Assembly: GCA_006503535.1 (NCBI GenBank)
Contig: QYRS01000001.1
Span: 5,185,373 to 5,249,372 of the forward strand
Direction of reading: 5' to 3'
DNA length: 64,000 nt
Origin: Arthrinium phaeospermum
Lineage: Eukaryota; Ascomycota; Sordariomycetes; Amphisphaeriales; Apiosporaceae
Part shown: piece after piece, positions 5,658 to 64,000 of the stretch
Layout: the number at the start of each line of letters is the position of its first letter
Numbering within the stretch: the first letter of the stretch is position 1
Translations under genes and position numbers: made by a program
The notes under the pieces: model-generated
Seen by the model: only the letters and a program-made list of their open reading frames with translations
What the model was told of the DNA's origin: nothing
Database searches by the model: none

Positions 5658-7408
5658 ATGGCTACTGTCACGACCATCTCCGGGGTGCCGCCGCCTGCAT
5701 CCCACGGGATCGAGACAAAGGTGCACGACGCCGAGAAGGCGCAGCACTACCAGCACGACGAGAAGGACCCCTACGAGCCGGAGCTCAACGTCGGCGGCCA
5801 TGGCGGGACCCAGCGCCGGCTCAAGAACTACCAGGTGACCATGATCGGCATCACCAGCGGCATCGGTACCGGTCTCTTCATCGGTACGGGCGCCGCCTAC
5901 GCCAAGGCCGGTCCCGCCGGTCTCCTCTTGGCCTTCATCATCGTCGGAGGCGTTCTCTGGTGTGTCATGCAGAGTATTGCCGAGCTGGCAACCCTGGTAA
6001 GTGTCCCTCTCTGTGTACCTGCGTTCGTGAACATCAGCCGCTGACGAGCAATTCGCATCACAGATCCCCACGGCTGGTTCTTTCCCCCACTGGGCCACGA
6101 GATTCATCGACCCCGCGGTCGGCTTCTCGCTCGCCATCTCGTACGGCTACTGTTTTACGATAGCCATCGCCTCGGAGTGCTCCGCCGCCGCCATCCTCGT
6201 CTCGTACTGGTCCGACATCTCGCCGGCCGTCGTCATCAGCATCTCCCTCGCCCTCATCCTGGCCATCAACCTGATGAGCGTGCGCTTCTTCGGCGAGACC
6301 GAGGTTGTCACGGGCGCCATCAAGGTCACCTGCTTCATCGGCCTGATCCTGACGTCCATCGTCATCACGGCGGGCGGCGCCCCCAACCACGAAAAGGTCG
6401 GGTTCAAGTACTGGAACGAGCCGGGCGCCTGGGTCGACTTCCACGGCATCACCGGCTCGACGGGCCACTTCCTGGGCTTCCTGTCGGCCTTTGTCAACGC
6501 CAGCTTCAGCTTCATCGGCGTCGAGACCGTCGTCATCACCGCCGCCGAGGCCGTCAACCCCCACAAGACCATCCCCAGCTCCGCCCGCAACGTCACCTAC
6601 CGCATCGCCATCTTCTACATCCTGGGCGCCCTCTTTATTAGTCTGGTCGTCGACCCCCGCAACGCCGCCCTCGTCTCGGGCACCGGCAACGCCAACAGCT
6701 CGCCCTGGGTCATTGCCATCCGCGAGGCCGGCATCAGCGTCCTGCCCAGCATCGTCAACGCCTGCATCATGATCTCGGCCTGGTCCGCCGGCAACTCGTA
6801 CTGCTGGGTCGGGTCGCGCATGATCGTCGCCATGACGACGGACCGCCAGCTGCCCCAGGTCTTCGGCCGCACCACCAAGAACGGCGTGCCCTACGTCGCC
6901 GTCGTCGCCGCCTGGCTCTTCGGGCCCCTCGCCTACCTCAGCCTCGGCCAGGGCGGCGCCGCCCAGGCCTTCTCGTGGCTGCTCAACCTCAGCACCGTCG
7001 CCGGCCTGATCGCCTGGGCCACGCTCTGCTTTTGTTATATTCGCTTCCACAAGGCCATGAAGGTGCAGGGCGTCAGCCGCGACACGCTGCCGTGGAAGGC
7101 GCCCTTCCAGCCCTACGCCGCCTGGATCGGCTTCATCGGCTCGTCCGTCATCGTGCTCATCACCGGCTTCCCCGTCTTCCTCAAGGGCAACTTCACGGCC
7201 TCGGGCTTCATCGCGGCCTATGTCGGCATCCCTATCTTCGTGATTCCCATCATTGTCTGGAAGCTGGTTCACAAGACCAAGGTAAGCAAGCTCCCCTCTT
7301 CTGCTCATTGATCCATATATAAGACTTGCGTGCTAACCAACTCCCCAGTTCATCCGAGCTCGCGACATGGATCTTTGGTCCGGTCGTCTCCCCGAGGGTT
7401 CTTCATAA
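5658..7408 (+). CDS. amino-acid permease (YAT / APC superfamily)
   Basis: Plasma-membrane proton-coupled amino-acid uptake carrier with 12 predicted membrane spans. Three exons, 5658..5996, 6064..7281 and 7349..7408, with two 67-nt introns; the second has a perfect branch site (TGCTAAC at 7331). The product has 538 residues, normal for the family. The TM1 signature SGIGTGLFIGTG is at residues 67-78, followed by the conserved region PTAGSFPHWATRFIDPAVGF. The segment SFSFIGVETVVITAAEAVNPHK corresponds to the TM6 consensus of fungal general and dicarboxylic amino-acid permeases. The N-terminal ~55 residues are cytosolic and contain several lysines, as expected for ubiquitin-mediated turnover. 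Substrate range cannot be read from sequence. Confidence 0.95.
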
Positions 7409-7685
7409 GCCTTCGTTCTTCTTGTCTTGCCTGGCCGACACAGCAAAGACTACCTTCTTGCGGGTGTTGGGAACCAGATCGGTTTGAGCAGAACCACCCT
7501 AATAAACATCGTAATAGACATCATAGACATACACTATACATAATTCAGGATACCCCTCTTCTACCAAGTTCAAACACAATTCATCTCCACGTCGTTTCGG
7601 TGCTGCGCATTGGTCACTGTGTGTCAAGTCCATTGCTCATTCAATTGCTCAGATGACAGCAGCAGGGTGCACTGTACGCTTTGTT

Positions 7686-8552
7686 TCATACATCAGGTAA
7701 CTCGTGGTCCAGGTTCAGGATGGGCTCGACGAATCCGCGGAACACGACGCGGGATATCCGCAGTGCCGGCGCGGCATCTTCCTTCTCCTTTCCCTCTCCC
7801 TCTCCTTCTCCCTCTCCCGGGCCCTTCTCCGCAGTCGCCACCCTGGAAGGAACCTTGTCATCTGTCATGGCAGGTATGTGGCCGTTGTTCACAGTCGATG
7901 TTGTCGCTGTTGTTGTCGTTGCTGGCGGCGCAAGGTCAGACGGTGACGTCGCCGCACTTGTCATGTCCTCACCACTGTCGGCCTCGAGGTTCAAGGTCCA
8001 GCGCAGCCCGAAGCCCCGACTGTTGCGGACCTCGTAGATGGCGACGTACGAGTGCAGCATCAGCACGTTCTCCCAGCGCACGTTGCCCAGGACGGTCTCC
8101 AGCACGCCGGCCGCCAGCGCCGTCTTGTGCTCGTTGCTGCCCTTGGGCAGGGGCCAGAAGGGGTGTGGCCGGCCATGTTCCGACGAGGCCCCACCGCGCT
8201 CGAAGTGCTCTGCCGATCCGTCAGTCAATCAGTCCATTTACCCCGCGTATCGCACCAGCTCTCTCGGCTCAGCTGTCAGGGACCTGCAGTAGTACATTGC
8301 ACTGAAGGCAGGTCCCCAATAGGTAGCTAGCACTTTCGAAAACGAAACAGGGCACTTACTGCAAAGAGCGACGGCGCCTGCGGACATGCGTGTCTTGGGC
8401 CGCGGAGGGGCGTTGAATGACTCGACCAGCGCCTGGCGATCGGGCGGCAGCAGGAACACGGTGCCTTGGGTGCGCACCAGCCCTGCCTTTCGGTAGGCCG
8501 TCTCCTCGGGGCTGGGTTCGGCAGACCAGGGCAGCTGCAGGCTCGGATACAT
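7686..8552 (-). CDS. unrecognised protein, two exons
   Basis: Exons 8552..8360 and 8209..7686 (minus strand), intron 150 nt with GTAAGT donor and CAG acceptor; splicing keeps one frame and gives 238 residues. The N-terminal half is compact with conserved-looking sequence (PWSAEPSPEETAYRKAGL, GTVFLLPPDRQALVESF, HPFWPLPKGSNEHKTALA, VLETVLGNVRWENVLMLHSY, YEVRNSRGFGLRWTL). The middle is a low-complexity Ser/Thr/Ala and GEGEGEGEG stretch, and the C-terminus returns to an ordered segment (RVVFRGFVEPILNLDHELPD). This looks like one domain interrupted by a disordered insertion. No family recognised, no membrane span. An alternative start lies nine codons upstream at 8579. Confidence 0.65.
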
Positions 8553-9002
8553 GGTTCCTGTGTGCTGTTGCGCTACCATCAACGACTTTTTGTGTCCGAA
8601 TTGAAGTCTGCTCGTTCGAGGACCTGATGTAGCATTGACAATAAAGAAAAATAACTGAGAGTAGAAATTCCCAAATGTCGCAATTGAGTAGCACCTACGA
8701 ATAAAACGCATTCCTATTTTCTTGCTGTCCTGCTTTCCACGGTGAGTCAACAGGCAGCCATCTCCGATGTGAGCTAGGTAGGGCTGAGCTGGGGCAGTGG
8801 TGGTGCCCGTCCCTCTGTTTAATGGGGCTCTTTAAGGGAAAGTTGCTCAACTTTCAATCGTGAATTCACCCCATCTAGAAATCAATTGAAGCAACATATC
8901 GATTTCTGCATGAAGCTCGTGTATTGCATCGTATTCTGAATTCATTTTGCTCAATTGCACCGTGGTATCCCTCGCTCGCAAATCCGATCCTCTAGAAAAA
9001 CA
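8553..9002. other. intergenic region
   Basis: 450 bp AT-richer than its neighbours, with three CAATTG sites (8681, 8883, 8953). It holds the promoter of the 8552 gene and the 3' UTR of the 9003 gene. No gene seen. Confidence 0.5.
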
Positions 9003-10617
9003 TCATGTCCGCCGCCATCGCGCGCCCCACGGCTCGACTTGGGCCCCTTCGTCTCGTGCTTCCCCGTTAGTCGTACCCTGGCTCCCCCCAATGGCTCCTC
9101 TCCCAGCCGCCGGCCCCGCAGGCGGCGGGTTCAAAGTCGTCGTGGGCTGAGAAGTTGCATGTCCGCCACCGTCCTCGCTACGACGAATCTGAAGCGGCGC
9201 GGGGACCAAAGAATCATCACTCGCCAGTTGTCGGCCGTAACTTTTCCCTCCGCCTTGTTGCACATCCGTCCCGGGCAGCTCCGCGACAGGAGACAGTTCA
9301 TCGGGCGGTGGCACTGCAGCGTTCCCAAAGCCTTCAGCACCAGCGCCGGCAACGGCACCAGTCCCAGCACCGCCCAGGGAGGAGCCTTCGAGCTCGCTGA
9401 CGGCCGAGTCATCCGACGGACGTGGGCGGTGCTTCGACTTGAGTTTGGACGACGACCGTCTTCCTACAGCTGTTGTCGCCGCCGCCCCTCCTTCTCCAAG
9501 CTCGCCCCGTAGCTTATGGGGCTTCGCCGGCCGACCATCGGCCTCCACAATCGCCGCGCCGTCCGCCATTGGCACCTTGGGCTCGCCCGAGGGTATCGAC
9601 CCTTCCTCCATCCCCTTGGCCGGGCGGCGACTGCTGCCGCGGCGTTGTCGGAGGAGCAGGAACACGAGCGCGATGAGCAGCACCCCGCCCACGGCCACGC
9701 CAACGCCCACCCCGATCTTGGCCCCCGTGTTGAGCCCGCCCGACTCGGAGCTGCCGTCGTCGCTGTTGCCCGTGTTCGATCCCGGTCCCGAGTTGGTGTC
9801 GCTCGGCGAGGTGGCGGTCCTGGTGACGGTCGCCGTCGTGGTTTGGCCATTTGCGTCGGTGAAGGTGGTTGCTGAAGAGGCCGGATGTGAGTCACTGGAT
9901 GGAGGCAGGGGGGAAGACGTTGGTGGGGGCCTGGATGGGGAAATAGCGGGAGAGGGAGCGGCACTGGGAGTCTCTTCTAACGTACGTGATACAGTGGTCT
10001 TGGGCGGGGCCGTGGTGGCTTGGCCTCCTCCTCCTCCTCCGGTAGTGCCTGCCGTGGGGACGGTGGCGGGCGGACTGTAGTTGGGGAAGAAGCTCATGGT
10101 GTCGCCCGTGTTCTGCGGCAGCGACACCAGGTTCGACAGGGTCTCGGTGTCCTTGAAGGCGACGGTGGCCTTGGCCGCCTCGGTGCAGCTGCAGAAGGCG
10201 CCGTTCTGGAGCGTCGATGGGTTGCCCTTCTGCGAGCAGATGGCCCACTGGCCGTCATTGTCGTCGCAGTAGGTCAAGGCCACCCATGGTTGGTCTGTTC
10301 ACCCGGGTGTATCAGCCAACTTGCTCACTAAGCAGATGATGGAGACATGCGCCAAACTCACCCACCACCTTCTTGGGGCAGCTGGCATCTTGATAGTCCG
10401 GGTCGCTGCAGCCGGCCCAGTAGGTCAGCATGCTCCCGTACCCCGTGCCGTAGACTCCGAAGCAGGCGCCGTCGGCCAGGCAGTTGTCGCCCTTGCCACA
10501 GCATGTCTGGTGGCCGAAGGCTTGGTTGCCGCAGGGGATGAAGCTCGAGTCGAGCTCTTTGCCCGAGGCCGTGTAGCAGGTGCCATTGCTGACGCGCGGG
10601 TTGGGATCATCGCTCAT
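9003..10617 (-). CDS. cysteine-rich single-pass membrane protein with Ser/Thr-rich stalk
   Basis: Exons 10617..10362 and 10294..9003, intron 67 nt; the join makes VVDQPWVALTYCDD and 515 residues. Architecture: an N-terminal cysteine-rich region of about 120 residues (about 12 Cys, e.g. QTCCGKGDNCLADGACFG), a Thr/Ser/Pro-rich stalk to about residue 240, one membrane span (GVAVGGVLLIALVFLLL) followed at once by RQRRGSSRR, and a disordered cytoplasmic tail of about 250 residues. This layout is common in Pezizomycotina and resembles wall-stress sensors, but the cysteine domain is not a recognisable WSC domain. No classical signal peptide at this start; either insertion relies on the internal span or an upstream exon is missing. 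The role as a surface sensor is inference. Confidence 0.82.
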
Positions 10618-52349: not shown

Positions 52350-52891
52350 ACCAAGTGTTGACTGATGAACGACAAAGCCATGTGTCATTGTGTTGGCCTT
52401 TTCGCATTGCTTGAGCTGTCTACGCCTGCGATAGTCTAGGCTACTACCTCAAGTCGGGGAAGACGATGCCCTCATCTATTGGCGCCTTGCAGTAGGGAGA
52501 TTGGAACCGGATTGATGGCTCTTTCTGGTGGCATCAGCGACCATCGCCAAAGGATCGAGGATGAAGTCTTGGGTTTCGTGGTGGCAGACTGCCAGATGCG
52601 GTGCCCAGCTCAATTGGTGGTGCACAGACTGGGGATTGCCACCAAAAATAGGTGTACAGACTTGCCGCCCAATTTTGGTGGTGCACAGACTCGAGGTCAC
52701 CACCAAAAACAGGTGTACAGACTTATTGCACCAAGCTTATTTGGTGGTTCACAGACTCGGGTGCGCTACCAAAAATAGGTTCACAGACTTGCTGCCCGCA
52801 CCCCGCCCAAAATAGGTGGTTCACAGACTGGGCTTGCACCGCCATATGAGGTTCACAGCATTCTGTGGTGGCAATTGGTGATGCACAGAGG

Positions 52892-53278
52892 GATGCGACA
52901 GGCGGAATTCTTTCAATTCAATTGGTAAAAGCAATTGGAGACATTCGGATTCAGTTGAAGAGGCTTTTTGCCAGATTTCATGCGCATTTCCAGTGTCGCG
53001 AGGGCTGCAATTGCGGTTTGGCAGTGATGCACAGAATGCAGTACCACTTACACGCCTTTAGGTGGTTCACAGCCTCGCCTTGCGCCCGACAACCAAAGGT
53101 GCGCTTGATGCGAGAGGCAAAACCATTCCAATTCAATTGGAAAAGGCAATCAGAGACATTCTGATTCAATTGAAGAGGAGATTTGTTAGATTTCATGCGC
53201 ATTTCCAGTGTCGCGAGGGCTGCAATTGCAGATTCGCAGGGAATACGGCACCACTTACACGCCTTTGGTGGTGTACGA
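52892..53278. repeat. tandem direct duplication, 215-bp period
   Basis: Copy 1 starts at about 52,892 and copy 2 at about 53,107; both contain TTTCATGCGCATTTCCAGTG and then GTCGCGAGGGCTGCAATTGC, and end in CACTTACACGCCTTT before a GGTGGT core. Lies inside the GGTGGT cluster. Confidence 0.75.
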
Positions 53279-53569
53279 CTTTTGGTGGTTCACAGACTTT
53301 TGGTGGTTCACAGACTCGCCGGGCACCCGCCAACGGAGGTGCACAGACTAGCCGCAGCCCAATTGGTGGTGCACAGAATTGCTGCCCCAGCTACAGTGGT
53401 GCACAAACTCTAGGTGCACCACCAAAAACAGGTGCACGCCAATTACCCAGCCAATTGGTGGTGCACAGAGTAGCCCGCGACACCAAATTCAGGTGCACAG
53501 CCTGCATCGGCTCTGGCGACAGCCAATTCTGGCATTTCAAGATAAAGAACAGATTGCATTTCAAAGGCA

Positions 53570-56639: not shown

Positions 56640-56906
56640 CACACCACCCCCTATTGTGGGCGAGCGAGCGGTGGCACTACCATATAGTATACTCAGAGTC
56701 GTTGTACGATTCCATGAATTTTATCCGTGCGGCGTGGGGCAGCCGGAAAAGTAGGGGTAGGATTCCATGCCGGAATAGGAGTAGGATTCCATGCCGGAAT
56801 AGTAGTACGATTCCATGATATTCATAGAATCTGACTAGGGTTCTATGAATTCGATACCTGCCGTACGACGCTGGAATCGGAGATTTAAGGTATTTAAAAA
56901 GAAAAA

Positions 56907-56970
56907 CGCTCACACTTGAACCAGGTCTCCCTTCTTTCGAAGGGCGTATTACCACTATACCATATAAGCC
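56907..56970 (-). ncRNA. tRNA-like pol III unit, truncated
   Basis: On the minus strand an A-box-like TGGTATAGTGGTAA, a 3-bp D-stem (GTA/TAC), a hairpin CCCTTC-GAAA-GAAGGG where the anticodon arm would be, a B-box-like GGTTCAAGT and a T5 run directly after. Total about 63 nt with no proper T-stem and no U33, so not a working tRNA. Could be a tRNA pseudogene or the head of a SINE. Confidence 0.4.
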
Positions 56971-57355
56971 TCGTGGGTCTTGCATCTTTGGATGAAAAGG
57001 TATGAGATAATAAGGTTGATATAAGGTGAATATGGAATTTGACTAAGGTTCTATAGATTCGATCTCTGTCGTACGACGCTAAAATCGGAGATCTACAGGC
57101 ATAGGATCTCGGGTACCTGCAGGATCTCCGTTGCAGCCAGATCTACAGGGGAGGGATATCGGGTGCAGTCAAAATAAGCTTTTGACGTCCGAATGCCAAG
57201 CCACTCTCCAAGCTAGTCACGTATCACACATCCACTTCATAACACTCATCGTACGACGACATCACCGGAAGAGAATAGGTAAGGGGAACCAAAATGGGTA
57301 TCATTCATCTGGGTACGGCTCATCGGCCACTGTCGAAACCATCGCAACTACTCTA

Positions 57356-58064
57356 TTATACAGGCCCATCGTACGATTCCAATCCATTAGTCCAGATTGA
57401 TCGGGTTTCAGCACTTCCCAGCAGCGCCGGAGCCGCTCGAGCAGCACCACCACGACCACCACCACGACCACCGTTGTTCTGCCCATCCACGTTGGCATCC
57501 GTCTTCGTACACTTCGCAGCATGGTCGACCCATTTACAGTTGGCACAGCACCCGCCGAAGTGGCCTGGCAGTCGTACGCAGCGTGGGAACGGGTTCGCGA
57601 AACCGCCGTTGAGGGTATCTGTCGCTGGCACTTCGCGCAGGGCGGATTGAAGCTGGCCACGGCTGGCGATCAGCAGGCCGTTGATGTAGCTCGGGCGGGT
57701 GGACAGGATCTGGTCCGCCGACATGAACCGTCGTACGACCAACACATTGAAGCCGGGCAGGGCGAGGACCGCACGCTGGAGGTTGTTGTGGCAGAGAAAC
57801 GCCCCAGTTGCTGCTGTCCGACGGGGAGGATCACGAAGGGACTCTGGTCTTCGAGGGGGGCAATCGCGACATCGGGATGGGCCCAGCCATTGTTGGCGGG
57901 AGGCGGAGGTGCAAGCTAGATACACCAAGTGTTAGTCGTACGGCAGGTCAGATGATACCAGAGACAGGATGGGATACTCACGATCAATTGGCCGGCGCCG
58001 CGGGGATGGCGTTCGGGTCGGCACCATGGTTCTGGTTGGCTGGCTGGTTCTGGTTGGCCGACAT
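57356..58064 (-). pseudogene. DUF3716-like protein, frame-broken
   Basis: Small fungal-specific gene. Exon 1 58064..57982 (MSANQNQPANQNHGADPNAI), intron 57981..57916 (GTGAGT ... TCTAG), exon 2 57915..57356. Exon 2 contains PLEDQSPFVILPVGQQQLG, ALREVPATDT and the cysteine motif PRCVRLPGHFGGCCANCKW then DHAAKC, typical of the fungal DUF3716 group. One base seems missing near the end of exon 1, which otherwise stops in TGA, and another near 57,808; both restore a continuous frame. Function of the family is unknown; such genes are often multicopy next to repeats. Confidence 0.6.
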
Positions 58065-58460
58065 GTCAGGCGACCCGTCAGCATCGAGCCATCGTGATTG
58101 CCGTACGGCTGCATCGACGGCGTCGCTCCATCCATCCGTCGGTGATGGCAGGAAGTAGATCTCGAGACCAGGTAGTCGGGAGAGGGAATGGTGGCAGAAG
58201 GTAGGTGCGGAAGGTAGGTAGCAGAAATGCAAGGCAAGCAATCGCCGTACGAGAGATGGATAAGGTACAGTAACAGAGAAGGCAGGCGAGGGTATTGCAA
58301 TCGAGCAATTCGGTGAGATGTGATGGTGGCAGACCTGGTGGGCAGGTAACCGGATCGGATGTGACAGCGGGAAAGGCAGATGGTATATCTCTCGGGCAAT
58401 TGGCCGCCGTACGAGCAATCGGATGAGAGGATCAATTGGAAGGCGGTATTGGCCAGGTCC

Positions 58461-58496
58461 GACGAGGGATCCGACGAGGGATCCGACGAGGGAGCC
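58461..58496. repeat. 12-bp tandem repeat, three units
   Basis: GACGAGGGATCC repeated three times, the last with one change. Lies in the non-coding DNA between the two element genes. Confidence 0.9.
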
Positions 58497-58956
58497 AAGG
58501 TGATAATGGGAATGTGGAATCGGAAACATCAAATGTGATGATGGGGAATCGTACGTACCTTGGTGATGATGGTGATGATGGCAATGAGAGAAGTTGAAAG
58601 GTTGAGAACTTGGAGCTGGCGTACGAGGGATGGTTGATGCGGAAAGGAATTGGTGCGGAAAGGAAGTTGATGGTGGAGGGTGGACCGATTGGCAATTGGC
58701 GTACGTAGGCAACTGGCCAGCTGGGCTGTTGCAGTGACGCGAAAGTTGATTTCTGGTGCCTGCCGAATCGGCTGGAAAGAGCATCAAAATTGACGTACCT
58801 GCCGTATCGAGGGAAGGAGCGCGTGGGTCGGATGGACTTCCGGTGATGTATCTCCGTTGATGTGGCGTACCTGCCGTATCATTAAAAGGTCGCCGTACGA
58901 GGGGTCACCCCGCCTGGTGGAGCACCAATTGATGGATTAGATGAAGGAGGTGAGTC

Positions 58957-59317
58957 AATTGGATATATCGTACGGCGAGGAGAGCAAACATATCTGGCGG
59001 TATATCCGGCCGGCCGATCGTGACACCGGCGGTGCCGGCGGTTTGGGACGGGTCAAGCCTCGCGGCACCGCCGGTGTTTTCTGGAGATGGCGGCGGCACT
59101 AGCAAACATATTGGATATCGTGGATGAGTCACCGTACGGCGAGGAGCAAATATTTGGCGGTATATCCGGTCGGCCGATCGTGACCCTCGCGGCGCCGGCG
59201 GTTTGGGACGGGTTAAGCCTCGCGGCACCGCCGGTGTTTTCTGGAGATGGCGGCGGCACTAGAAACATGTTGGATATCGTGGATGAGTCACCGTACGATA
59301 AGGTGCATCGTGTATTA
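58957..59317. repeat. tandem duplication, about 160-bp period, two and a part copies
   Basis: Copies begin near 58,957 and 59,113 with a third partial at 59,271 (shared GGATATCGTGGATGAGTCAC between the last two). Each copy has one CGTACG near its start (58,969, 59,133, 59,292), a GGTATATCCGG(C/T)CGGCCGATC block and GGCACCGCCGGTGTTTTCTG. The period equals the commonest CGTACG spacing. Confidence 0.85.
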
Positions 59318-59550
59318 AAAAGAGAGCCGGCCGGTTGATCGTGATCTCCGTGACGTCGGAGGTTCGGTTCCGGTATAAAAAGGTCGGACCTGGCGCTGGT
59401 CTTGATAGACCGCCGGTATTGCTCGGGACGGCGACGATATATGTAAGTTCATGAGTCGTACGATGGTATGGAACCTGACTAGCATTCCAAGAGATATTAT
59501 GGGACCTGAGAATTCAAAGTGGAATCGGACTAGGATTCCATGTTCGTACG

Positions 59551-59640
59551 GCCCCATAGAAGTGGATTAGGATTCCATGTACTCCATAGAAGTGGACTAG
59601 GACTCCATGTACTCCATAGAAGTGGACTAGGATTCCATGA
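59551..59640. repeat. 30-bp tandem repeat, three units
   Basis: Unit ACTCCATAGAAGTGGACTAG plus GATTCCATGT, three copies 59,551-59,640 with a few substitutions. Related words (GGATTCCATG, GACTAGG) recur at 56.7-56.85 kb and 59.47-59.54 kb, so this word belongs to the element. Confidence 0.85.
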
Positions 59641-59672
59641 GGCATTTTCTGCGATGGATCGTGATCCAGTAT

Positions 59673-59680
59673 TATAAATA
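59673..59680 (+). promoter_or_regulatory. TATA box of the OrsD/RecQ gene
   Basis: TATAAATA, 74 bp upstream of the ATG at 59747, in a pyrimidine-rich leader. A CGTACG follows 5 bp downstream (59,685). Confidence 0.5.
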
Positions 59681-59746
59681 CCGCCGTACGACGCCTATTC
59701 CTTTCTCTCTCTTCTTCCTCTTATTATCTCTTTTACCTGTTCTATT

Positions 59747-62700
59747 ATGGATCCATTCACCTTCCTAGAGGAATACCACGTCTTCGTCTGCACGACATGT
59801 CAACACGCCTGTCTCGTGGACGAAATAACAGTTCATTTGCGTACGAAACATCGATCAATACCTGTTTCTATTAGAAAAGATATTGAACACGCCGTACGCC
59901 AAGTCCCAACAGCGTTTACCCGTCAATCCGACCTCTCTGCTCTCCCCGGCCCCCCTTTACCTCCCCCCCCTTTTCCGTTCTCGGCCCCCCTCGGACCGAC
60001 GGCTATGCCTGTACCGAATGCCCCTGTGTTTATACCCATATCAAATCGATTCAGAAACACTGCCGTACGGAACATAGCTGGGAGAATCATTGGGAAAGGG
60101 GGGGTAACGTCCGACTCCAGGCAGCCGAGCGGGACCGTACGCAATACCGGCCGTGGCGGACCGGAGTCCATTGCCAACGCTTCTTTCCCGGCCGGTCCGG
60201 GAGCTTCTACTTCGAGGTAACCCGGCCGCTCCGGCTCCGGTTCCGGTACGGAATACCGTCCTCGAGACCTTCCGAGCCCAGGCTGCCGAGTTCACGCGTA
60301 CGACGGGGTCTGTTATCGATACAGGGCACAAACACGAGCCGAATCCGTGGCTGGTCCGAACCGGCTGGGCTGTACATCTCCGGGGGTATGACCATATCCG
60401 CCTCCGTACGGGAGTCAGCCTAAAGCCGGCCGAGGGGTGGCTTCCCGATTCCGACCCCTTGATGGCCGGGAGTTACAGGATGTATATCGGAGTATCGACC
60501 GTATCGTACAACGAGCCCAGGGTATATCAACCCCGAGCTCCGTCCCATCGGCCGTACTGTTCCTCCATCAACGCAGCCGGGACCAGAAGCCAAATACCCC
60601 CTTTTCCGGCCTGATGGAGGATGCTACCCGAAACTCTTATACCAACGTATGGAAACAGGTTATCGGTTACCTCTTTCGTACGCAGGTATGGGGAGGAGGC
60701 TATACCTCCATTTTCGCTTACCCTGCCCAACAAGTCGCTCTCGACGACGTCGAGGCCTTTTTCGAGTCGGATCCGGCACCGGTACCGAGTACGGCGTATT
60801 CCGACCTCGATATACTCTGTTTAACCCTCTCTCTCTCTTTTCGACCATATACTTAGCAGATCGCCGTACGACAGTGTTCTACTCAGTGCGTTGAGTATTC
60901 TCGGTCTCCGGACTACCGGGGAGACTGTGAACTGGCTGCCCCCTTACGAATATACCTATATATATTCCGCCGTTCTCAAGATTGGTCGTCTCTTTCTCCT
61001 TTTACAGTCGTACGACGAGTGTACCGCGGAGGATAAGGAGTCTACGGAGGATAAGAAGTCCCCGTCCTTATACTCCGTCGTCCGAACTAAGGTATTCCGG
61101 TATTTCACCGTCGTTTCGGCCGAATCGGACCCTTCGCCGGCAGATTGGATATTCGAAGCCCGGTCTTACGGTATGGGTATAGCGTCCAAAACGCCGTCGT
61201 CGGCAGATATCCAGTGGGACGGGCAACAGGTGACGTACGGCAAGGTATCGTTTACTATGAGTCAGTTCATCCAGTTCGTCCAGAATATAACGGGTGAGCT
61301 CCGTCGTACGATACTATCCCTCCTCTTTGCCGAGGACGAATCCGACCTCCCCCTTTATCTCTCGCCGGGGTCCAGGACGACCTGACCGACTTCCGGCCGG
61401 AATACAACTTTTTGGTCGATTCGAATACCTGCTTTACCAGCTGTACGGGACCAGATTGGCTCGCTCAACGTATCCAGCAACAAAAGGACTTACGTACGGC
61501 GTGGTTTAATAGGAGTACTATTCAACCCCGGGAATTGGAGCGATATAAGGACCTCGTCGACCGGTTCCGAGAATTGCTCCTTTTGTTGATGCATTTTACC
61601 GGAGGGCAGCCGGGCCGGGCTTCGGAGGTTCTCAGTATAAGGCACCGGAACACGTCGTACGGCGGTTGCCGGAATATCTTTATTTCCAGGGGCCTTGTCT
61701 GTTTTATGACCCTTTACCATAAAGGGGCCCAATCGAAGCAGACTGTCAAGATTATCCATCGGTACCTGCCGGACGAGGTTGGGACGGCCTCGTACGATAC
61801 CTCTGGTTAGTACTTCCCTTTTGGGAAACGTGTCTCGGACTTGCCGGCCGGGGTTCTTTCCGGAGTGACTTCCTATTCGGGAAGGAGCTGGTACGAGATA
61901 AGGCCGCCGTACGGGAGGAGGGCGGAGAACCACTCTGGACCGGGGACCGGATGCGCCGGAGCCTCGAGGCCGCCTCTCTCCGGTGGATGGGGGTGAAGCT
62001 GAATATCCACGATTACCGGCATATCGTTATTGCGATATCTCGGGAATTCCTTCAGGGGGCATTTAAAGGACCGACGGTACCGTACGATGACTCATCTCCG
62101 GACTCTGATCAGGAGAGGATAACTTTGCCGCGGTATATGCCCGCCAGGCCGCCCACTCTCCAGACGGACGGCATGGTATATGCTCGTACGAATGATACCC
62201 TTTCCGGACCACGAGGTCTCATCAGGAGCAGGAACGGACGATCAGTGACTGGCACCGGTGGCTGACGTTCCCCTCTGCCGTTGACCATGGTTATTCCATA
62301 AAGGGGCCGTACGAGGAGCTCCAGGACGATATTGCGGTACAGCGGATCCAGACCCTTCGCCGGATCAATATGCTCGCCATGCTCCGGTTCATGCTCCAGC
62401 AACCCGATGCCGGCTTCCGTGGCCAGCAAGAAGCCGTGATTCAAGGTCTCGTACGAGGGCAAAGTCCGGTATTGTATGTCGCCGGGACGGGGAGTGGAAA
62501 GAGTATTACCTTTTTACTCCCCGCCTTCTGCTCGGCCGAGGGTATTACTATCGTTATCGTACCGCTGGTATCTCTCGAGGAGGACCTCCACCGACGGTGT
62601 AAGATATACGGTATTACTTCGTGGATATACTCGTACGGCGAGATACGAGAGGCTCAGGTCGTATTTGTTACCCTGAATCGACTACCACTAAGGCCTTTCA

Positions 62701-64000
62701 ACAGTACGTACAACGGCTCGTTATGTTCCGGCAACTGGACAGGGTCGTCCTCGATGAAGCCCATGTGGTATTAGATGGGTCATACCGGTTCCGGCCACAG
62801 TTGCAGGAGATTGGTCGTACGATGGTTGAATTCGGGGTTCCCCTTCTTTCCTTACCGCGACCCTCGCCGTTCAGGATATGCCGGCCTTTATCCGAAATAT
62901 CGGTATCGACCTCCGGCGAACTCAGATATTCCGGAGTAGTACCGTCCGGGCGAACCTTACTATTCCGTTACCTGGGTCGAGAAGGAAGAATACGTGGTTA
63001 CCGAAGCCGTACGACAGGTCCTTACCGTGGTCAATACTCTGTCCCCGCCGCGTGTTATCGTATATTGTCTCACCCGTCCGGGACGGAGGCCGTGGCGAAG
63101 GCGATCGGATGTCCGGCTTACCATGCCGCTACCGGGACGAAGGAGGAGAAGTCCGGCGTACGGCACCGGTGGACCGAGGACGGAGGGTGATTGTTGCTAC
63201 TGGTGCCCTCGCGTTAGGTTTGGATCTTGCCGACGTACGATACGTGTTCCATGTGGGTATGCCCCGGACACTCCGTGACTTTGTTCAGGAGAGCGGCCGG
63301 GCCGGTCGTGACGGGGAACGGTCCGAGTCCCGTATTATTGCGGCGCGTTTCAATGGTCGTACGAGCCAGCCTCCACGGATTGTTCCTGCCGGATATGAAA
63401 ATATCCAGGATTATATGGACGGGGTCGGGGGTTGCCGCCGTGTTTGCTTAGATCGGGTGATGGACGGCGATTAACACGGATCCGATGCGGCCCGGAAGAG
63501 ACGGCGTGTGACCTCTGCCGTACGAAGAGGACCGGGTAGGAAAGAGGAAAACGGCCGGACCCGACGACGAAACGGAACGGACTACCATCTCCGGGCACGG
63601 CATCAAGGGGTAGCCTGGCAACAGGCCGTGGTACGGCAAGGGAGACGAGACGATCAGGAGCAGGTGGAGCGATTCCGGTCTACCGTACGACGGGTCCGTG
63701 GGGTGGTGTATATATTGCACGTCCCAGCAACGGGCGTTGATTGTACACGACGGCACGACCTGCTTGATTGCGGATGAACCGGGGCCGGTAACGCTGGCGA
63801 ACAACCGGGAAGATTGAACGGGCCGTACGGGGTATACCGTACGAGGCTCACGGCGGGTGTTCGCGGTGTTACTTCCCCGGGGTGGTGTACGGCGTGGGAG
63901 GAACGGGACGGGGACGGCGGTCGGATGATTCGTACGGCAAAGGATTGTGATTTGGAGGGAATATTTATCGACTTTCTTACGTTATTACTTACGGAACTCC
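59747..64000 (+). pseudogene. OrsD zinc-finger / tyrosine-recombinase-like / RecQ helicase, frame-broken, continues past window
   Basis: One long gene in pieces. 59,747-60,210: OrsD-type start (EEYHVFVCTTCQHACLVDEI, then CTECPCVYTHIKSIQKHCRT plus EH, a C2H2-like finger). 60,240-62,070: alpha-helical region ending in MHFTGGQPGRASEVLSIRH and NIHDYRHIVIAISREF, resembling box I and box II of tyrosine recombinases. 62,300-63,480: RecQ core with motif I VAGTGSGKS, motif II LDEAHVVLD and motif VI FVQESGRAGRDGE, then a CDLC zinc-type pair. Frame breaks near 59,990, 60,213, 60,470, 60,838, 61,368, 61,785, 62,200, 62,683, 62,848, 62,960 and 63,085, mostly as one missing base. DEAH instead of DExH variants is normal for RecQ. 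Coding signs run to the right edge. Confidence 0.75.

Follow-up and report, generated by a model that had tools for sequence, protein, structure and literature searches.

Why should one six-base palindrome recur at nearly regular intervals through a 7.1-kb region at the end of a fungal contig, within genes as well as between them? The window analysed was a 64,000-nt stretch of Arthrinium phaeospermum DNA (assembly GCA_006503535.1, contig QYRS01000001.1, positions 5,185,373-5,249,372, forward strand). Counting exact matches in the window gave 50 CGTACG sites in 7.1 kb, with first bases at 56862 to 63931, the same number as in the first-pass annotation; the runner-up 6-bp palindrome of the region occurred 15 times. 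The whole window contained 62 CGTACG, thus 12 outside the array region, not around ten as first estimated. The features of the region are as follows.

56678..64000, + strand: TLH element (see below) as present in the window; window base 64000 is the last base of contig C1 (5,249,372)
56678..56702, + strand: left terminus of the element, TACCATATAGTATACTC
56862..63936, no strand: array of 50 CGTACG palindromes, by exact-match count
57356..57928, - strand: small DUF3716 gene, a single ORF in the window copy (Pfam PF12511, E 3.4e-7)
58969..59297, no strand: 160-bp tandem duplication with one CGTACG per unit
59747..60220, + strand: OrsD C2H2-finger, N-terminal part of the helicase protein (Pfam PF12013, E 2.8e-9)
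60420..62328, + strand, approximate: tyrosine-recombinase-like region, from structure and catalytic residues of the C7 copy
62370..62774, + strand: RecQ helicase, DEAD part (Pfam PF00270, E 5e-9)
62878..63474, + strand: RecQ helicase, Helicase_C part (Pfam PF00271, E 7.1e-10)

We identify the region as a repeat of the telomere-linked helicase (TLH) type, with OrsD and RecQ parts and a sharply defined left end: it encodes a RecQ-type helicase domain and is present in several copies beside telomere repeats. The left end, TACCATATAGTATACTC, was common to the copies C1, C4 and C7, each with different flanks, and further copies, two near-identical and three RIP-destroyed, were located at other contig ends, which bears out the earlier description of the region as mobile-element-like. 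TTAGGG followed immediately after the C7, C3 and C9 copies, whereas the C1 and C4 copies reached contig ends without telomere repeats. Fungal TLH genes are RecQ-type helicase genes repeated at chromosome ends (PMC4522978, PMC12857005), a likeness shared by the present element; neither a motif array nor a recombinase domain is described in the consulted parts of those two papers.

In the intact C7 copy, 51 CGTACG sites were found with a mean gap of 144 bp. The coefficient of variation of the gaps was 0.35, versus 0.98 under random placement, and none of 20,000 simulations was equally even; one gap was shorter than 50 bp and none exceeded 288 bp. Site density was similar throughout the element. 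The intact 1,378-aa ORF of C7 contained 28 sites, versus 6.2 +/- 2.2 and a maximum of 14 in 2,000 codon-preserving shuffles, and these were read in all three frames (12 as Arg-Thr, 8 as Tyr and 8 as Val-Arg). Thus, the claims of the first-pass annotation that the spacing is too even for chance and that protein constraint does not explain the sites were upheld; a half-spacing class proposed at 70-80 bp was not, since gaps of 65-85 bp numbered 6 against 3.6 expected (P 0.15). Three ordinary sources of such an array, a high genome-wide rate, codon use and one amplified short repeat, had also been named beforehand. The genome contained 8,579 CGTACG in 48,449,939 bases, about 1.25 per 7.1 kb, and this total lay within the Markov expectation of 6,705 to 10,015, trained on 56.6 kb of the window only, so that the hexamer is neither enriched nor avoided. 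The shuffles did not reproduce the count, and only 4 of the 51 sites had 40-bp flanks at least 70% alike to those of another site. An origin of the array in codon use, base composition or the amplification of a single repeat can therefore be practically dismissed: two to three sites do lie inside the single 160-bp tandem duplication, but most flanks are unrelated, non-coding DNA carries sites as well, and the array recurs in relatives, partly at other places.

The sites shared an extended palindromic logo, YGY-CGTACG-RCR, alike for the 28 coding and the 23 other sites. Each one-mismatch neighbour of the core occurred five times at most, some at 2 to 5 times the background rate; with so few neighbours, the core is sharper than transcription-factor sites usually are. 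Among the C7 gaps, the class of 158-174 bp, picked post hoc, was over-full (13 versus 5.0 expected, P 0.001); such a length is a nucleosome-like figure. This class, together with the mean gap, would fit a conserved host factor, such as a general regulatory or nucleosome-phasing protein, that binds CGTACG and whose sites the element has gathered as heterochromatin barriers or for phasing. That reading is unlikely, as the host genome is unbiased for the hexamer and as homologues, described next, lack the array. The 4 kb surrounding a RecQ gene of host type contained no CGTACG, a result that carries little weight because only about 0.7 was expected.

Relatives were judged from proteins only, CGTACG compatibility being read by back-translation. 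The sample comprised 120 listed of the 268 homologous proteins found; of the 23 proteins listed in a later search, the new ones P0121-P0132 were scored, P0121-P0129 were added to the tree and to the 130-protein count, P0130 lay outside that count, and P0133-P0139 were left out. In 13 of 130 proteins, CGTACG took one of the ranks 1 to 5 among the 4,096 hexamers; these 13 all fall within or next to one clade and include proteins of Apiospora, Trichoderma, Pleurostoma and Sporothrix, versus a best rank of 148 among 109 others. The set of 21 proteins treated as the clade, Sporothrix P0116 included, was chosen after seeing the trees. Of 17 clade members, 11 had evenly spaced inferred sites, versus none of 100 others, 4 of 104 negatives with fewer than 8 hits each having been dropped. 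A joint scan for density and evenness (4,096 hexamers in 121 proteins) left 21 rows, nine of which were CGTACG, all in the clade, and four of which came from proteins outside it. P0012 and P0005 had a high CGTACG rank with uneven spacing (P 0.48 and 0.25). From the proteins, the array appeared absent in clade members P0121, P0122, P0020 and P0039, and would thus be dispensable, lost or switched. No convincing substitute hexamer was found in array-less members; P0007, in which GTCATA and TACGAC ranked high, perhaps carries a drifted motif. The named TLHs of Fusarium and Purpureocillium, which belong to the same order as Trichoderma, showed no inferred array. DUF3716 homologues were too short for their spacing to be tested; in Apiospora P0140 the two C7 sites of the ORF stretch compared were both compatible, and the three Fusarium verticillioides DUF3716 proteins had no compatible sites.

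In the 121-protein tree, 14 of the 15 proteins with z >2.4 fell inside one 17-tip clade (support 1.0), the exception, P0117, being weak. In the 130-protein tree, Sporothrix P0116 shifted next to P0129 (support 0.975, long branches) and P0121 and P0122 sat inside the clade as negatives; a single origin of the array is thus likely, not proven. The trait tracked element phylogeny over four orders. Because the array follows this phylogeny, is missing from the Fusarium and Purpureocillium TLHs and stands in an unbiased host genome, it appears linked to the element and not to the host; against a host factor speak also the other TLH homologues outside the clade and P0121 and P0122, array-less sisters of an array-bearing protein. 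Inside the clade, a Lys in the second finger tracked the array in a post hoc comparison (6 of 6 with versus 0 of 6 without); P0130, a 636-aa piece among the six clade proteins without this Lys, ranks CGTACG 4th, its spacing not even, and the residue is also common outside the clade.

Aligned C7 coding sites were compatible at 20 of 23 positions in Apiospora P0001 (74% identity), 14 of 26 in Trichoderma P0004 (44%), 6 of 25 in Pleurostoma P0006 (38%) and 4 of 22 in Sporothrix P0116 (32%), in a comparison that left out P0039. Position sharing alone is weak evidence, because compatible C7 peptides that are not CGTACG sites were often shared too (13 of 19, 7 of 18 and 5 of 17 in P0001, P0004 and P0006, respectively); in P0001, residues at sites were kept at 92%, versus 71% expected. 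These comparisons suggest marks kept in number and spacing and shifted in position across fungal relatives, and recurrence within one clade with turnover of positions is strongly inferred. Together, number, spacing, independence from coding and recurrence with shifted positions strongly support selection or drive acting on the DNA itself; the DNA-level function proposed in the first-pass annotation, or else drive, gains further from the shared logo and the similar density throughout the element. The specific readings put forward there, binding by an OrsD finger or a recombinase, methylation and phased chromatin, are candidates.

The helicase frame of the window copy is broken downstream of the OrsD part, and the recombinase-like region was placed there from C7 (L010:6046-7968) via neighbouring sites. 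In C7, DUF3716 was matched at E 6.1e-12 (PF12511) and the ORF matched both Pfam DEAD and Helicase_C; a family profile (A2, helicase part, built from homologues) matched RecQ1, RecQ5 and BLM structures, the best rows at E 1.7e-61 or better. VIA-align identified the catalytic-domain fold of tyrosine recombinases between fingers and helicase, and the catalytic residues R, K, R, H and Y were conserved across 33 aligned proteins: R403 in 32, R536, H582 and Y591 in all 33, and two candidate lysines, K438 in 33 and K447 in 32; the box II His was kept in just 5. Three Foldseek searches with this region returned no significant match, the C7 region gave no Pfam hit with an E value of 1 or lower, and no recombinase catalytic domain was among the 25 families listed of the 40 found in the 33 members. 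By VIA-align and conserved residues, the proteins appear to include a tyrosine-recombinase domain, and no TLH-recombinase fusion was found among the matches listed in open-licence literature. Cryptons and Starships are fungal mobile elements that likewise encode a tyrosine recombinase and are marked by short target-site repeats, a circular intermediate and a captain-type domain; the TLH element, with its fixed left end, differs in its lack of a Pfam match, its RecQ fusion and the telomere at its right end.

Since one protein joins this fold to RecQ, the palindromes could be working sites of a recombination or copying machinery, used for loading, pausing or strand exchange, so that a chromosome end might be rebuilt from any internal break. 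In agreement with this, copies lie at contig ends, their left end is fixed and, where the end was assembled, a telomere follows on the right; C9 also has a truncated-then-added tandem. However, the first CGTACG lies 184 bp inside the left end, which is itself not CGTACG; the C9 junction (element position 7309) falls about 20 bp past a site, not at one; and repeated crossover sites would destabilise the element. We regard this reading as improbable.

Protection of the sites from RIP was rejected, as only 1 of 45, 1 of 34 and 1 of 39 aligned sites were intact in the three RIPped copies. CpGs in sites mutated more than others (0.78 versus 0.49, with 0.67 predicted from sequence context), an excess beyond context of 0.106 +/- 0.022 per site over 49 sites.

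Molecular drive without function, in which a copying or repair step favours CGTACG-bearing stretches as proposed for bacterial DNA-uptake sequences, is very improbable. We know of no uptake step for the TLH element. Uptake sequences are likewise short, dispersed and found inside genes, and earlier work cited in PMC1939737 called them evenly spaced; they are, however, genome-wide and non-palindromic, whereas the CGTACG array is palindromic and confined to one mobile-looking element. As far as the consulted part of that paper goes, uptake sequences are surrounded by an excess of near-matches, which CGTACG lacks, and are less even than expected of compaction sites (PMC1939737). No similar CGTACG array was found among the best matches in open-licence literature. 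In viral_contigs, the triple-site pattern occurred in at least 120 stretches with one or two matches each; L091, L094 and L063 were rejected as like arrays, their sites being closely packed, unlike those of the TLH array. A peptide pattern for TLH relatives hit 21 stretches in viral_contigs and 52 in genome_contigs, none of which tblastn confirmed.

Our main reading, to which we give a probability of roughly 45%, is that the array consists of recognition sites for a sequence-specific DNA-binding protein encoded by the element and serves to mark the element's own chromatin. Sites would be kept by selection, or drive, on DNA over the whole element; the putative reader would most likely be the OrsD-finger/tyrosine-recombinase/RecQ protein or its DUF3716 partner, and with one site per roughly nucleosome-sized stretch it could mark all element DNA. 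The near absence of intact sites from RIPped copies and a core so sharp for a transcription-factor site count against such a reader. In the VANC/VANDAL system of Arabidopsis, as far as the consulted parts of the reports go, sequence-specific anti-silencing acts through a short motif that has built up in a single transposon family and varies between related families (PMC5735166, PMC10398659). The CGTACG motif is similarly concentrated in its element. VANC motifs form tandem repeats outside coding DNA, whereas 28 of the 51 C7 sites lie in the main ORF, as a sharp palindrome spread evenly through coding and other DNA. By this analogy, the likeliest purpose would be to hold the element's chromatin open or distinct within silenced subtelomeres, so that it may stay expressed and copyable.

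More tentatively still, the array may be a self-marking code: a clade of tyrosine-recombinase/RecQ elements would write a palindromic mark into each nucleosome-sized stretch, genes included, and replace lost marks elsewhere, its own protein thereby telling element from host DNA at chromosome ends. If TLH proteins do contain a tyrosine-recombinase domain that has retained its catalytic residues, as they appear to, telomere-linked helicases would be recast as recombinase-helicase mobile elements. Across deep divergence within Sordariomycetes, coding DNA appears to have preserved a second message whose positions can shift, and with the array one can test how selfish DNA makes itself recognisable to the proteins it encodes, escapes silencing or is copied at telomeres.

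Exact CGTACG occurred at 50 sites within the last 7.3 kb of the window, precisely the number that the first-pass annotation had claimed for the terminal element region, against 15 occurrences of the runner-up 6-bp palindrome. A purine directly followed the hexamer at 44 of the 50 sites and a pyrimidine directly preceded it at 42. The genome (48.45 Mb, 19 contigs) contained 8,579 CGTACG; Markov models built on 56.6 kb of the window alone predict between 6,705 and 10,015. Elsewhere in the window, nt 52602-53377 formed a tandem-repeat tract, its units 18-61 bp long and sharing TTTGGTGGT.CACAGACT-like words.

The window end coincides exactly with the end of contig C1, and further copies of the telomere-linked OrsD/RecQ helicase element were located as follows:

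Start of C4: near-identical copy
End of C7: near-identical copy, running into TTAGGG repeats
End of C3: RIP-ruined copy, telomere repeats present
Start of C9 (L046, L047, L169, L042, L038): two RIP-ruined copies in tandem, telomere repeats present

The left end, TACCATATAGTATACTC, was identical in the C1, C4 and C7 copies, where its flanks were unrelated, and recognisable in C3 and C9. In C9 one copy breaks off at element position 7309 and is fused to the left terminus of a complete, telomere-adjoining copy. The element thus acts like a single unit that is added to chromosome ends. The C7 copy encodes a 1,378-aa ORF; the reading frame of the window copy is broken, by either assembly error or decay. 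Nearly all differences of the C3 and C9 copies from C7 were C→T and G→A changes; once these were collapsed, identity across the element body was about 1.00, with lower values toward the right end. The array was thus present in these copies before RIP, and the spread of the element is recent, so that copies within this genome offer no evolutionary depth. GC of the heavily RIPped copies fell from 55% to 20% or less, and the CGTACG sites were not spared; hence any binding would not be protective at the RIP stage. The copies in L009, L010 (C7) and the window seemed RIP-free; those in L012, L013 and the C9 loci were heavily RIPped, with almost identical underlying sequence. An AT-rich stretch of repeated GAAGACGAAGAAAAT-like units, lacking CGTACG, separated the helicase gene from the telomere (approximately L010:9835-10000 and L011:1-430).

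Triples of CGTACG with two consecutive gaps of 140-170 bp numbered 29 genome-wide, versus 2 for a reversed-pattern control, and 27 fell within the window element or the copies on C4 and C7; the others were at C1:1680590 and C10:1639790. The intact C7 copy had 51 sites with a gap CV of 0.35, an evenness reached by 0 of 20,000 random placements, which upholds the earlier claim of over-even spacing. Density per kb was 4.6 in the left end, 6.2 in the DUF3716 gene, 7.4 in the intergenic repeats and 7.0 in the helicase gene. Of 48 places in the intact ORF where the protein permits the hexamer, 28 carried it, whereas 2,000 codon-preserving shuffles gave 6.2 sites on average and never more than 14; protein coding is therefore no explanation. 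The extended logo, YGY-CGTACG-RCR, was similar at coding (28) and other (23) sites, and each one-mismatch neighbour occurred at most 5 times. The pattern is real and DNA-level. Outside this genome, IMG/VR contig L091:4035-4811 had 41 CGTACG in under 800 bases, with short, irregular gaps.

Relatives were scored from proteins by the hexamer that, read in each of the three frames, best accounts for over-represented dipeptides and tripeptides, with ranking by the lowest-frame score. CGTACG ranked 1st of 4,096 hexamers in 8 of 130 proteins and between 2nd and 5th in another 5, all 13 in or beside one clade, whose named hosts span four orders of Sordariomycetes; its best rank among 109 proteins outside the clade list was 148. 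CGTACG-compatible peptides were evenly spaced (P < 0.05) in 11/17 clade proteins and 0/100 others, although P0012 and P0005 combined a high rank with no even spacing. A joint density and evenness filter (4,096 hexamers, 121 proteins) left 21 rows: 9 CGTACG, all from the clade, 7 one-base shifts (GTACGA, TCGTAC) and one GTCCGG, also from the clade, and 4 scattered outside it. In the clade member P0007, GTCATA and TACGAC ranked above CGTACG, perhaps because the extended palindrome has drifted there. As counter-evidence, by this protein-level scoring the array was absent in P0020 and P0039, and in P0121 and P0122, both nearer Pleurostoma than C7 is.

A compatible peptide stood at the aligned place of C7 sites in 20/23 cases in Apiospora (P0001), 6/25 in Pleurostoma (P0006) and 4/22 in Sporothrix (P0116, whose tree placement was unstable), despite totals of 47 and 42 such peptides in the latter two. 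Site positions thus appear to turn over between members. C7 compatible peptides without CGTACG were shared in 13/19 (Apiospora) and 5/17 (Pleurostoma) cases, nearly as often in some relatives, so position sharing alone proves little. The array is very probably old in the clade.

Even spacing, kept number, moving positions and indifference to frame together suggest that what is conserved is the presence of a site in each stretch, as would fit a bound protein covering the element. An element-encoded reader is favoured over a host one, since the trait tracks the element phylogeny and the host genome has no CGTACG bias; the OrsD fingers, the recombinase and DUF3716 are candidates for this role. 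In the second finger, a Lys preceding the first His was found in 6/6 array-bearing clade proteins versus 0/6 others (one of which, P0130, is itself array-like), but being common outside the clade it is only a lead. The tyrosine-recombinase-like domain of the telomere-linked OrsD/RecQ proteins (L010:6046-7968 in C7, about 60420-62328 in the window) kept its catalytic residues in 32-33 of 33 aligned proteins and was found outside the CGTACG clade as well. Because one element protein unites recombinase and helicase, sites for recombination or copying are a serious rival. The nearest functional model is VANC, the anti-silencing protein of Arabidopsis VANDAL transposons, whose motifs are located in non-coding tandem repeats (PMC5735166, PMC10398659), whereas CGTACG also fills coding DNA. 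The best reading of the array would be a VANC-like one.
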